This document shows positions 41,014 through 45,038 of a stretch of DNA of 64,000 bases, piece after piece. The notes beneath the pieces were generated by a model. It ran no database searches. It was not told the DNA's origin and was given only the letters and a program-made list of their open reading frames with translations. Every line of letters starts with the position of its first letter. Positions within the stretch are counted from its first letter, which is position 1. The DNA lies in the NCBI RefSeq assembly GCF_001517975.1, contig NZ_KQ950183.1, forward strand, positions 151,527-215,526, written 5' to 3'. Source of the stretch: Thermobifida cellulosilytica TB100. Lineage in GTDB: Bacteria > Actinomycetota > Actinomycetes > Streptosporangiales > Streptosporangiaceae. Made by a program: the position numbers and the translations under genes.

Positions 41014-42438
41014 GTGACACGTCGAGCAAAGATCGTCGCGACCCTTGGACCGGCCACTTCGAGCCCGGAAACCCTCCGCAGGCTCGTCGACGCCGGTCTG
41101 GACGTAGCGCGACTCAACCTCAGCCACGGTACCCACGCCGACCACAGCGCCAACTATGCCAACGTCCGCGCCGCCGCCGAGGCCAGCGGACGCAGCGTCG
41201 GCATCCTCGCCGACCTCCAGGGACCCAAGATCCGCCTCGGCACCTTCGCCGACGGCCCCGTCACCCTCAACCCCGGCGACGAGTTCACCATCACGGTCGA
41301 CGACGTCCCCGGCGACCGCCACCGGGTCTCCACCACCTACAAGGGACTCCCCGGCGACGTCCGTCCCGGCGACCGCGTCCTCATCGACGACGGCCGCGTC
41401 GTCCTCGAGTGCGTCAAGAGCTCCAGCACCGACGTCCACACCCGGGTCATCATCGGCGGCCAGGTCTCCGACCACAAGGGCCTCAACCTCCCCGGCGTCG
41501 CCGTCGCCGTCCCCGCCCTGACCGAGAAGGACGAACGCGACCTGCGCTGGGCCCTCGAACAGGGCGTCGACCTGGTCGCGCTCTCCTTCGTGCGCAGCCC
41601 CGCCGACGCCGAGGACGTCCACCGGGTCATGGACGAGGTGGGCGTGCGCGTCCCGCTCATCGCCAAGATCGAGAAACCCCAGGCGGTGGAGCGCCTCCAG
41701 GACATCATCGAGGCGTTCGACGGCGTCATGGTCGCGCGCGGCGACCTCGGCGTCGAGCTGCCCCTGGAGAACGTTCCGATGGTGCAGAAGCGCGCCATCG
41801 AACGCTGCCGCGACAAGGCCAAGCCGGTCATCGTCGCCACCCAGATGCTGGAGTCCATGATCAACGCCCCCCGGCCCACCCGGGCCGAGGCGTCCGACGT
41901 GGCCAACGCCGTCCTCGACGGCGCCGACGCCGTGATGCTCTCCGGCGAGACCAGCGTCGGCAAGTACCCCGTGGAGACCGTGCAGACCATGGCGCGCATC
42001 ATCGCCGCCGCCGAGCAGGAGTCCCTGCGCGCCTCCCACATCCTCAACCGCGTTCCCGAGACCGTGGGCGGCTCCATCGCCCGCGCCGCCGCGGAGGTGG
42101 GCGCCACCGTCGGAGCCAAGGCCCTGGTCGCCTTCACCAGCAGCGGCGAGACCGCGCGCCGCCTGGCCCGCTACCGCTCGCCCATCCCGCTGCTGGCCTT
42201 CACCACCGAGTCCTCCACCCGCGCCCAGCTCTCCCTCACCTGGGGCGTGGACACCCACCTCGTGCCGTGGGTGGACAACACCGACGACATGGTCCGCCAG
42301 GTCGAGACCGAACTGCTGGACATGGGCTACCAGAAGGGCGACAAGGTCGTCATCGTCGCCGGCAGCCCGCCCGGGACCCAGGGGTCCACCAACATGCTGC
42401 GCGTGCACCGCATGGGCGACGCCATCACCAACCGGTGA
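41014..42438 (+). CDS. pyk: Pyruvate kinase
   Basis: A 474-residue enzyme converting phosphoenolpyruvate and ADP to pyruvate and ATP. Landmarks: RAKIVATLGPATSSPE at the N-terminus, LSHGTHADH, ILADLQGPKIRLG, the signature LIAKIEKPQAVERL with catalytic Lys, VARGDLGVELP and TQMLESMI. The length is standard when read from GTG 41014. Its promoter shows a DasR-like palindrome, which would tie glycolytic flux to amino-sugar status. Confidence 0.98.
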   Translation: MTRRAKIVATLGPATSSPETLRRLVDAGLDVARLNLSHGTHADHSANYANVRAAAEASGRSVGILADLQGPKIRLGTFADGPVTLNPGDEFTITVDDVPGDRHRVSTTYKGLPGDVRPGDRVLIDDGRVVLECVKSSSTDVHTRVIIGGQVSDHKGLNLPGVAVAVPALTEKDERDLRWALEQGVDLVALSFVRSPADAEDVHRVMDEVGVRVPLIAKIEKPQAVERLQDIIEAFDGVMVARGDLGVELPLENVPMVQKRAIERCRDKAKPVIVATQMLESMINAPRPTRAEASDVANAVLDGADAVMLSGETSVGKYPVETVQTMARIIAAAEQESLRASHILNRVPETVGGSIARAAAEVGATVGAKALVAFTSSGETARRLARYRSPIPLLAFTTESSTRAQLSLTWGVDTHLVPWVDNTDDMVRQVETELLDMGYQKGDKVVIVAGSPPGTQGSTNMLRVHRMGDAITNR

Positions 42439-42528: not shown

Positions 42529-43473
42529 TCAGGAGCGGTGCTCGCGGCCCTCGCCCCGCTCTCCCACGACCACCCGGTCCAGCGGCATGTCCCAGGGCAG
42601 CAGCCGCCACGGGCTCGTCGGATCGGTCGTCAGCAGGCCCAGCGCGGCCCACATCCGGTCGGCTCCCGCCGCGGCCGGGCCGTCCTGCTCCAGCAGGAAG
42701 CCGGCGTGGAAGGCCGCCGACAACTGGCTCCACCCGCCGAACCGGCGTTGCAGATCCGCGGCCACCCGGCGCAGCAGCCCCTGCGTCTCCACCGGGCTCA
42801 GCCAGTCCAGCGTGGCGCCGCCGCAGATCAACGGGACCAGGTACACCGCCCGCCACCACTGGTAGGCGCCCACCACCACCGAGTCGGCGGGCTCGCGGGC
42901 CCCCGCGACCTCGCGCAGCCGCGCCACCTGCTCGGCGGTGAGCACCAGCGTCTGCTCGGGCTGGCAGCCGTCGGAGCGGCGGCTGCGCGCCACCCCCGAC
43001 CGCAGGTCCACGACCAGGTCGGTCTCGGGGGCGGCGTGCAGTTCCGCCCAGAGGCCCTCGATCTTCGCCAGCAGCCCTGCCCGGTCGGTGACGCCCAGCT
43101 CCCGGGCGAACGTGCGGCGGTAGCGCGACCGCAGTTGCGGACGGACCACCACGTCCCACGGCTCGGCCAGCGCCACGCGGAACGGCGCGGCCACCGCGGC
43201 CGCCCAGCGCTCGGTGCTCAACGGCGCGTCCGGATCCTTGGTCCGCAGCGCCGGGGCCTCGTAGGCGCCCACGACCAGCTCCGCGAAGGTGCCGACGAGC
43301 AGCGCCGCCGTGGGCAGCAGCGACCACCCGGGGAGGCCGGCGGCGACGAGCACCACGGTGAGCAGCGCCAGGGGGGCCATCAGCCACGGCAGGCGGCGCT
43401 TGGACGCCCAGGACACCACGGCCCACGCGCCGATCGCCAGCGCGCCCACGACCCCGGCCACCGCGGTGAACAC
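42529..43473 (-). CDS. Membrane protein with DUF1266-like C-terminal domain
   Basis: A 314-residue protein: three hydrophobic helices within residues 1-72, then a soluble domain. The C-terminal stretch VGAYQWWRAVYLVPLI and FGGWSQLSAAFHAGFLLEQ recall DUF1266, where a Trp-rich segment precedes an SW..f..g motif; I hold this loosely. Function unknown. It faces away from the tRNA and is convergent with pyk. Confidence 0.65.
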   Translation of the reverse strand: MFTAVAGVVGALAIGAWAVVSWASKRRLPWLMAPLALLTVVLVAAGLPGWSLLPTAALLVGTFAELVVGAYEAPALRTKDPDAPLSTERWAAAVAAPFRVALAEPWDVVVRPQLRSRYRRTFARELGVTDRAGLLAKIEGLWAELHAAPETDLVVDLRSGVARSRRSDGCQPEQTLVLTAEQVARLREVAGAREPADSVVVGAYQWWRAVYLVPLICGGATLDWLSPVETQGLLRRVAADLQRRFGGWSQLSAAFHAGFLLEQDGPAAAGADRMWAALGLLTTDPTSPWRLLPWDMPLDRVVVGERGEGREHRS

Positions 43474-44199: not shown

Positions 44200-44226
44200 G
44201 AAAGCCGCCTCTGGCGGGCGGCTTTC
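44200..44226 (-). terminator. Terminator of the tRNA gene
   Basis: On the minus strand a 10-bp stem (44226-44217 with 44209-44200) with a seven-base loop is followed by TTGTCT, 18 bases beyond the tRNA 3' end. This is close to a classical intrinsic terminator. Confidence 0.75.
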
Positions 44227-44244
44227 GCGTGCGAAGGGGAAGAG

Positions 44245-44318
44245 TACCCCGGGTCGGATTCGAACCGACACTGTATGGATTTTGAGTCCACCATCTCTAC
44301 CGATTGGATTACCGGGGC
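44245..44318 (-). tRNA. tRNA with anticodon CAA (Leu) and short variable loop
   Basis: A 74-base cloverleaf can be folded: 7-bp acceptor (GCCCCGG with CCGGGGT, one G-U), D arm of three pairs with GG in the loop, anticodon stem GTGGA/TCCAT with loop CTCAAAA (anticodon CAA, UUG leucine codon), five-base variable loop ACAGT, T arm GTCGG/CCGAC with loop TTCGAAT, discriminator A. CCA is not encoded. Bacterial leucine tRNAs normally have a long variable arm; this one does not. A terminator follows. It is divergent from pdtaR. Confidence 0.85.
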
Positions 44319-44434
44319 GCTGTCGAATCTGGTCGTCCTGGAGGAGCTTTTCCGGGATTCCCGCGTTCCTCCGGGGACGGTCCGGCCAGGGGCTGGCGGC
44401 CCCGGACGGTGCAGACTATCTTAGCGGATCTCTG

Positions 44435-44440
44435 TACCCT
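44435..44440 (+). promoter_or_regulatory. -10 element of leaderless pdtaR promoter
   Basis: TACCCT ends seven bases before the GTG at 44448. No ribosome site lies in front of that GTG. Confidence 0.45.
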
Positions 44441-44447
44441 CTTGTCT

Positions 44448-45038
44448 GTGACGCAGACGCAGACGCAGAGCCGCGTGGTGATCGCGGAAGACGAGGCCCT
44501 GATCCGACTGGATCTGAAGGAGATGCTGGAGGAGGACGGCTACGAGGTCGTGGGAGAGGCCGGGGACGGGGAGGCCGCCGTCCGCCTCGCCACCGAGCTC
44601 CGCCCCGACCTCGTCATCCTCGACATCAAGATGCCCGTCCTGGACGGGCTGTCCGCCGCCGAGCGGATCGCCGCCGAGCGGATCGCGCCCGTGGTCATCC
44701 TGACCGCCTTCTCCCAGCGCGACCTGGTGGAGCGGGCCCGCGACGCCGGAGCGATGGCCTACCTGGTCAAGCCCTTCACCAAGAGCGACCTGGTGCCCGC
44801 CATCGAGATGGCGGTGAGCCGCTACGCGGAGATCACCGCCCTGGAGGCCGAGGTCAGCGGGCTCAACGAGCGCCTGGAGACCCGCAAGATCGTCGAGCGC
44901 GCCAAAGGGCTGTTGCAGAGCCGGCACGGCCTCAGCGAACCCGAGGCGTTCCGGTGGATCCAGAAGAACTCCATGGACCGCCGACTCACGATGCGCAAGG
45001 TGGCCGAGACCGTGCTGGAGACCCTCGGTGACCAGTGA
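44448..45038 (+). CDS. pdtaR: ANTAR-domain response regulator
   Basis: A 196-residue two-domain regulator. The receiver domain has the acidic pocket EDE at 14-16, phosphoacceptor Asp59 in VILDIKMPVLDG, and the Thr and Lys in ILTAFSQ and LVKPFT. The C-terminal ANTAR domain (about 135-190; IVERAKGLLQ, EAFRWIQKNSM, LTMRKVAETVL) binds dual-hexaloop RNA hairpins and acts as an antiterminator. Its partner kinase PdtaS is not in the window. GTG 44448 was chosen; TTG 44442 is possible. A strong terminator follows. Confidence 0.95.
   Translation: MTQTQTQSRVVIAEDEALIRLDLKEMLEEDGYEVVGEAGDGEAAVRLATELRPDLVILDIKMPVLDGLSAAERIAAERIAPVVILTAFSQRDLVERARDAGAMAYLVKPFTKSDLVPAIEMAVSRYAEITALEAEVSGLNERLETRKIVERAKGLLQSRHGLSEPEAFRWIQKNSMDRRLTMRKVAETVLETLGDQ

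Follow-up and report, generated by a model that had tools for sequence, protein, structure and literature searches.

The 64,000-nucleotide stretch of Thermobifida cellulosilytica TB100 DNA analyzed here (the window; contig NZ_KQ950183.1, positions 151,527 to 215,526) carries, at 44245–44318 on its minus strand, a tRNA with the leucine anticodon CAA and a variable loop of only five nucleotides. A long variable arm is the textbook mark of a leucine tRNA. Despite its arm-less (class I) body, the sequence evidence makes it highly probable that this tRNA is the cell's UUG leucine tRNA, an elongator charged by the ordinary leucyl-tRNA synthetase (LeuRS).

ARAGORN found one tRNA in the window (44244–44318, minus strand, anticodon CAA), and Rfam family RF00005 covered 44245–44318 on the same strand over its full length (model positions 1–71 of 71, 58.8 bits with a gathering threshold of 29, E 3.9e-10). 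Both results bear out a first-pass annotation of the DNA, which had read a CAA anticodon on a class I body with a five-base variable loop and had left the body to be checked with a covariance model. In the RF00005 match, the anticodon is preceded by U33 in a seven-nucleotide loop, and the variable loop falls short of the 10 or more nucleotides of a class II arm. There is a perfect T arm and a D stem of three pairs, with C13 mismatched to A22; the acceptor stem is closed by G1-U72, and the gene terminates with A73, with no CCA encoded. The structure does not look like a product of chance: among 84 family members (73 distinct), standard pairs make up 98.7% versus 79.5% after shuffling, in a model-fitted alignment that is biased towards the model; 14 of 20 pairs in it show changes on both sides. 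Folding of the single sequence was mildly significant (z -1.9) and misplaced the D arm. On its predicted structure, we file the tRNA as an arm-less variant of tRNA-Leu and not as a class II tRNA-Leu.

The whole genome (99.99% complete) was searched with RF00005, and all 54 matches were inspected. The leucine tRNAs for CAG and GAG have the long arm, and those for CAA, UAA, and UAG have the short loop. No long-armed tRNA for CAA, UAA, or UAG is present among the 54 matches, and the second, long-armed tRNA-Leu(CAA) that the first-pass annotation had thought worth looking for is thus absent from them. The search does not miss the long-armed class as such, because it recovered the long-armed serine, tyrosine, and leucine (CAG and GAG) tRNAs. 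UUG, UUA, and CUA therefore depend on arm-less tRNAs, and the window tRNA, with no other CAA tRNA among the matches, is not redundant. That the short loop extends to the UAA and UAG tRNAs had gone unnoticed in the first-pass annotation.

The genome's own arm-less UAA tRNA (L078, 9926–9999, minus strand; G000:C1:784125-784198) has C33 instead of the near-universal U33, in the loop CCUAAAA. C33 occurs in 20 of 213 class I leucine tRNAs, the UAA tRNAs of many relatives included. For some arm-less tRNAs, ARAGORN gave the anticodon AAA through a shifted CCUAAAA loop; pairing and stem covariation (for example, in L224) favor UAA with C33 over AAA.

The arm-less body belongs to a family that is confined to leucine anticodons. 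A family model (R1) built from 32 arm-less leucine tRNAs scored the three such tRNAs of this genome at 93, 79, and 73 bits, versus 57 bits for the next tRNA, and had matches in 55 of 60 relatives. All R1 matches inspected in the 60 relatives have leucine anticodons, and one of them (L420 in genome G039) is actually long-armed. The anticodons found on the arm-less body are CAA, UAA, and UAG, with CAG and GAG as well in some genomes. An anticodon-free pattern was also searched for, to avoid model bias, in 296 genomes of the class, of which 213 match; among the listed matches, 85 of 88 distinct strings have a leucine anticodon, leaving one tRNA-Asn and two strings that lack a tRNA stem. The leucyl-, seryl-, and alanyl-tRNA synthetases (LeuRS, SerRS, and AlaRS) are reported to be the three that ignore the anticodon (PMC13206607; this and the other papers cited are represented by the available parts of their texts). 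Since the body occurs on leucine anticodons only, it is expected to be recognized by a synthetase of this kind.

Across the phylum, R1 at a strict cut matched at least 87 of 296 genomes, a lower bound set by the 16 candidates scored per genome. For 64 of these 87, the relationship is at the level of the same phylum, not the same class or nearer, and so the family extends beyond the class. Of 29 new loci from these matches, 28 have CAA or UAA, and for the last (L390) ARAGORN gives AAA and a four-nucleotide loop. Four relatives (G003, G013, G021, and G024) have arm-less UAA and UAG tRNAs and no CAA tRNA of either type in the R1 and class II searches; UUG may be read in them by the UAA tRNA alone. 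Arrays of arm-less leucine tRNAs were also seen at L198 (G004), L228 (G031), L234 and L413 (G036), L242 (G028), L264, and L287. These partly hold other tRNAs, CAG and GAG anticodons occur in them too, and they look like mobile tRNA arrays.

For the elements by which LeuRS recognizes its tRNA, we relied on a 2023 review whose authors we take to be Giege and Eriani. Its available text reports that Escherichia coli LeuRS requires A73, A15-U48, G18G19, and A20a, and that the long arm is dispensable for this enzyme, with minimal tRNAs lacking the arm still charged (PMC9976931). All of the elements listed there for E. coli and Aquifex aeolicus (A73, U8-A14, A15-U48, G18G19, and A20a) are present in the window tRNA. 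We compared 213 distinct arm-less leucine tRNAs with 27 long-armed leucine tRNAs and 41 other tRNAs of this genome. Among the arm-less tRNAs, A73, U8, and A14 occur in all 213, A15 in 212, U48 in 208, and G21 in 205, with the A15-U48 pair in 207. A22 opposite a nonpairing position 13 was found in 213 of 213 arm-less and 27 of 27 class II leucine tRNAs. The full core (A73, A14, A15-U48, the 13:A22 mismatch, and G21) is carried by 199 of the 213 arm-less and 26 of the 27 long-armed leucine tRNAs, and by none of the 41 others. Arm-less and bacterial class II leucine tRNAs (CAA, UAA, and UAG) are thus alike in their anticodons and core, and in the case of CAA also in their locus. However, the class II form has an arm of 12–16 nucleotides and G13, whereas the arm-less form has a loop of 5–6 nucleotides (8 in one instance) and C13. 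As far as can be read from these letters, the arm-less tRNAs retain what LeuRS is reported to recognize.

The locus provides a further link to leucine. The neighboring gene on the other strand encodes a response regulator with an ANTAR domain (Pfam PF00072 and PF03861), built like PdtaR, in agreement with the adjacency to pdtaR noted in the first pass. Among relatives, the class I CAA gene adjoins pdtaR at 28 of 29 loci, 26 of them divergent. Among the matches listed in a pattern scan of named genomes, it does so at 111 of 118 loci, 103 of them divergent. The 80 loci listed by name are all actinobacterial except for one archaeal chance match (L271), and they include Streptomyces, Mycobacterium, Micromonospora, Nocardioides, Cellulomonas, and Frankia. 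The comparison of the pdtaR-linked tRNA across actinobacteria thus supports the earlier suggestion of a conserved special tRNA.

Long-armed tRNA-Leu(CAA) occupies the same place, divergent from pdtaR, in seven of the seven relatives in which one was found. Mapped onto a PdtaR protein tree (114 sequences), the long-armed state requires a minimum of three changes if well-supported branches alone are counted and seven on the best tree, and its grouping as one clade was rejected (p-AU 2e-19, by a quick method with long branches present). This pattern is read as one pdtaR locus with two body types that appear to have been switched at least three times. The long-armed tRNA-Leu(CAA) of G039 (G039:C1; L420/L422), at the pdtaR locus, joins a long arm to an acceptor and T arm like those of arm-less tRNAs, and over the 64 remaining positions it is 86% identical to arm-less CAA tRNA versus 77% for its best long-armed match; it is likely an intermediate. 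In the 60 genomes, the numbers with class I, class II, and both bodies are 35, 7, and 0 for CAA, 45, 3, and 0 for UAA, and 33, 12, and 0 for UAG. Both body types for one of these anticodons were thus found in none of the 60, the class II counts being lower bounds; the product of the chance values for this exclusion is 2e-10, with kinship ignored.

Codon usage at conserved positions is consistent with an unchanged genetic code. In 30 LeuRS genes, at columns conserved to at least 80%, leucine columns account for 50 of 56 TTG, 10 of 10 CTA, 2 of 2 TTA, and 1092 of 1121 CTG codons. In the 15 genomes that have an arm-less CAA tRNA and in which no long-armed one was seen, 12 of 13 TTG codons fall at leucine columns, and in 144 pdtaR genes, 45 of 50 TTG and 728 of 745 CTG codons do so. 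As judged by conservation, UUG, UUA, and CUA have kept their place at leucine positions, and the tRNA would accordingly decode a leucine codon. The form of LeuRS was considered as an explanation for the missing arm and set aside: relatives have two forms (~840 and ~990 amino acids), and arm-less tRNAs occur with either. Both forms seem to be present in some genomes (G037:C124, G005, G014, G035, and G047), and in G037 they are adjacent.

These observations are probably explained by LeuRS reading A73 together with the D-loop/T-loop core (U8-A14, A15-U48, G18G19, and A20a). The long arm would then be unneeded and so could be lost; at the pdtaR locus, it would have changed several times, through deletion or replacement, and phages would ferry related copies between bacteria. 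Several points weigh against a leucine elongator of this kind. At least one core letter is missing in 14 of the 213 class I leucine tRNAs, and the failure to find both body types together rests on incomplete class II counts outside this genome, the class II pattern being narrow enough for at least one such CAA gene (L420) to escape it. TTG is also a slightly weaker leucine marker than CTG in both LeuRS and pdtaR. Lastly, a comparison over 61 shared positions places the genome's own UAA tRNA (67%) closest to the window tRNA, followed by Glu(CUC) (64%), and no class II leucine tRNA is among the 14 nearest. The nearest isotype by identity was not informative.

The first-pass annotation had raised the possibility of charging with another amino acid, which would make UUG (and UUA and CUA) reassigned or ambiguous in these bacteria. 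A leucine anticodon on a class I body would indeed be expected of a reassigned tRNA, and there is a precedent in yeast mitochondria, where CUN is read as threonine by a tRNA-Thr(UAG) (PMC7609411). But the body pairs with all five leucine anticodons and, among the listed matches, with no others, such that only an anticodon-blind synthetase could serve it; it has the leucine core, shares its locus with class II tRNA-Leu(CAA), and reads a codon found at leucine columns of LeuRS and pdtaR, as UUA and CUA are found at leucine columns. We reject reassignment as extremely unlikely. A nontranslational role, likewise raised earlier, would have the molecule act as a tRNA-like RNA, for example as an amino-acyl donor, a regulator of pdtaR, or an integration site. 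UUG is rare, with 0 to 3 codons in each of six window genes; the tRNA gene is firmly tied to pdtaR; and a Bacillus cereus pseudo-tRNA offers a precedent (PMC3399842). Yet U33, the T arm, and the cloverleaf are retained, a plain class II tRNA-Leu(CAA) holds the locus in other genomes, and the genome search returned no other CAA tRNA, which makes such a role very unlikely as the sole function while leaving room for one beside translation. The 13:22 mismatch and the missing CCA might hint at a decaying pseudogene, but the mismatch with A22 is common to class II leucine tRNAs, the Rfam score is high, and the pairs are retained through many compensated changes; conservation leaves this explanation next to no probability.

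The arm-less leucine tRNA is also common among phages. Similarity searches returned 24 phage records for the CAA form, 47 for the UAG form, and 358 for the UAA form, the last figure counting similarity matches of which part were listed. The hosts include Mycobacterium, Streptomyces, Escherichia, Salmonella, Erwinia, Pseudomonas, Enterococcus, Lactobacillus, Synechococcus, and Prochlorococcus. Direct reading of 19 records drawn from all queries (17 from phages, 2 from plasmids) showed an arm-less leucine tRNA in 18 (27 tRNAs, 20 with the full core); none of the other tRNAs in the 19 records has the full core. The exception is a Thermomicrobium roseum plasmid (L407), where the UAA query matched what ARAGORN reads as a tRNA-Lys, and similarity rows alone are therefore no proof of an arm-less leucine tRNA. 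Chromosomes of other phyla were covered by the named-genome pattern scan only. The phage and plasmid records suggest that LeuRS enzymes of several phyla accept arm-less tRNA-Leu and that phages move it.

The arm-less tRNAs might instead all go back to a single phage-borne tRNA, taken up into actinobacterial chromosomes, with no loss of the arm in place. This alternative concerns origin and is compatible with function as the UUG leucine tRNA. Besides the many phage hosts, it is favored by the 98.4% identity over 61 nucleotides between a tRNA of cyanophage P-RSM6 and the UAA form of an actinobacterium (L018), but the G039 gene fits loss in place. In a tree of 61 columns, which resolve little, phage and chromosomal copies are intermixed, and one clade of all class I tRNAs was not rejected (p-AU 0.10). 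We regard a phage origin as a possibility that deserves weight, short of a probable one. A bolder and rather unlikely proposal is that arm-less tRNA-Leu is one mobile lineage, carried by phages between phyla, that repeatedly displaced long-armed isoacceptors because it would serve any bacterial LeuRS while escaping toxins and nucleases that hold on to this arm. The toxin MenT3 is reported to prefer long-armed tRNA-Ser and to depend on its variable loop (PMC11541572).

Leucine tRNAs without a long arm occur only in animal mitochondria, according to the available text of the 2023 review, in whose main text a term search found no mention of Actinobacteria, Mycobacterium, or Streptomyces (PMC9976931). 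Like the window tRNA, animal mitochondrial tRNA-Leu(UUR) lacks the long arm and is specified by A73 and A14 (PMC9976931), whereas the window tRNA forms a stable cloverleaf, and the bacterial chromosome that encodes it also carries long-armed isoacceptors. For the Mycobacterium mucogenicum clade, a one-sentence remark describes an arm-less tRNA-Leu(TAG) within a cluster of tRNA genes (PMC6582537); that tRNA is an oddity of the cluster beside a normal long-armed TAG tRNA, unlike the sole chromosomal isoacceptors of a family. The toxin study implies that only some Mycobacterium tuberculosis leucine tRNAs are long-looped (PMC11541572), and we infer that the leucine tRNAs in that passage are those for CAA and UAA; its available text concludes nothing on the remaining ones. 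Allo-tRNAs (PMC7609411) and the B. cereus tRNAOther (PMC3399842) also break the usual rules, but the window tRNA has normal 7/5 stems, not the 8/4 or 9/3 of allo-tRNAs, and is the sole CAA tRNA found in its genome. The CAA tRNA is listed in work on how Streptomyces decodes leucine codons, in whose available text the word "variable" is absent (PMC4932002).

The sequences themselves are public and named tRNA-Leu. No description of arm-less leucine tRNAs as a bacterial family, or of their replacing class II tRNAs, was found by a full-text literature search whose coverage mostly excluded subscription journals. The long-arm rule appears to be broken by much of a bacterial phylum, with Streptomyces and Mycobacterium among the genera concerned, and by phages that infect many hosts, which calls for caution in tRNA annotation that uses the arm as an isotype mark. 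Because long- and short-armed forms occur as natural pairs at one locus, the features of the arm that are read by LeuRS, by editing, by tRNA modification, and by tRNA-directed toxins can be tested directly.

The hairpin 3' of the tRNA (Table 1) has a folding energy of -22.7 kcal/mol (z -3.4), and one terminator-like site was observed by the gene versus 0.5 expected. The dedicated terminator proposed in the first pass thus holds as regards a stable downstream hairpin, but its U tail is only weak. A sigma-70-type promoter match was sought in the intergenic region at 44319–44447, and none was found.

Table 1. Features at and around the tRNA(CAA) gene, in window coordinates.
Feature	Position	Strand	Basis or remark
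Class I tRNA-Leu (short variable loop), anticodon CAA	44245..44318	-	ARAGORN, Rfam; covariation among relatives
Anticodon CAA (tRNA positions 34-36), loop CUCAAAA including U33	44282..44284	-	ARAGORN, Rfam
Variable loop ACAGU, 5 nucleotides (44-48); class II tRNA-Leu has a 12-16 nucleotide arm there	44270..44274	-	Rfam, comparison
Hairpin just 3' of tRNA, terminator-like, weak U tract	44200..44226	-	Terminator scan, folding
Short intergenic region between tRNA and divergent pdtaR-type gene	44319..44447	.	No sigma-70-type promoter match
pdtaR-type response regulator (receiver + ANTAR), conserved divergent neighbor	44448..45038	+	Start 44448 inferred from reading frame
Pyruvate kinase, on far side of tRNA, as in many related loci	41014..42438	+	Pfam, loci of relatives

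A DUF1266 protein (Pfam PF06889) is encoded at 42529–43473 on the minus strand, between pyruvate kinase and the tRNA(CAA). Elsewhere in the genome, a second tRNA-Pro(CGG) (L065, G000:C4:402533-402604) has a Gly-like D arm, in addition to the normal tRNA-Pro(CGG) (L060).
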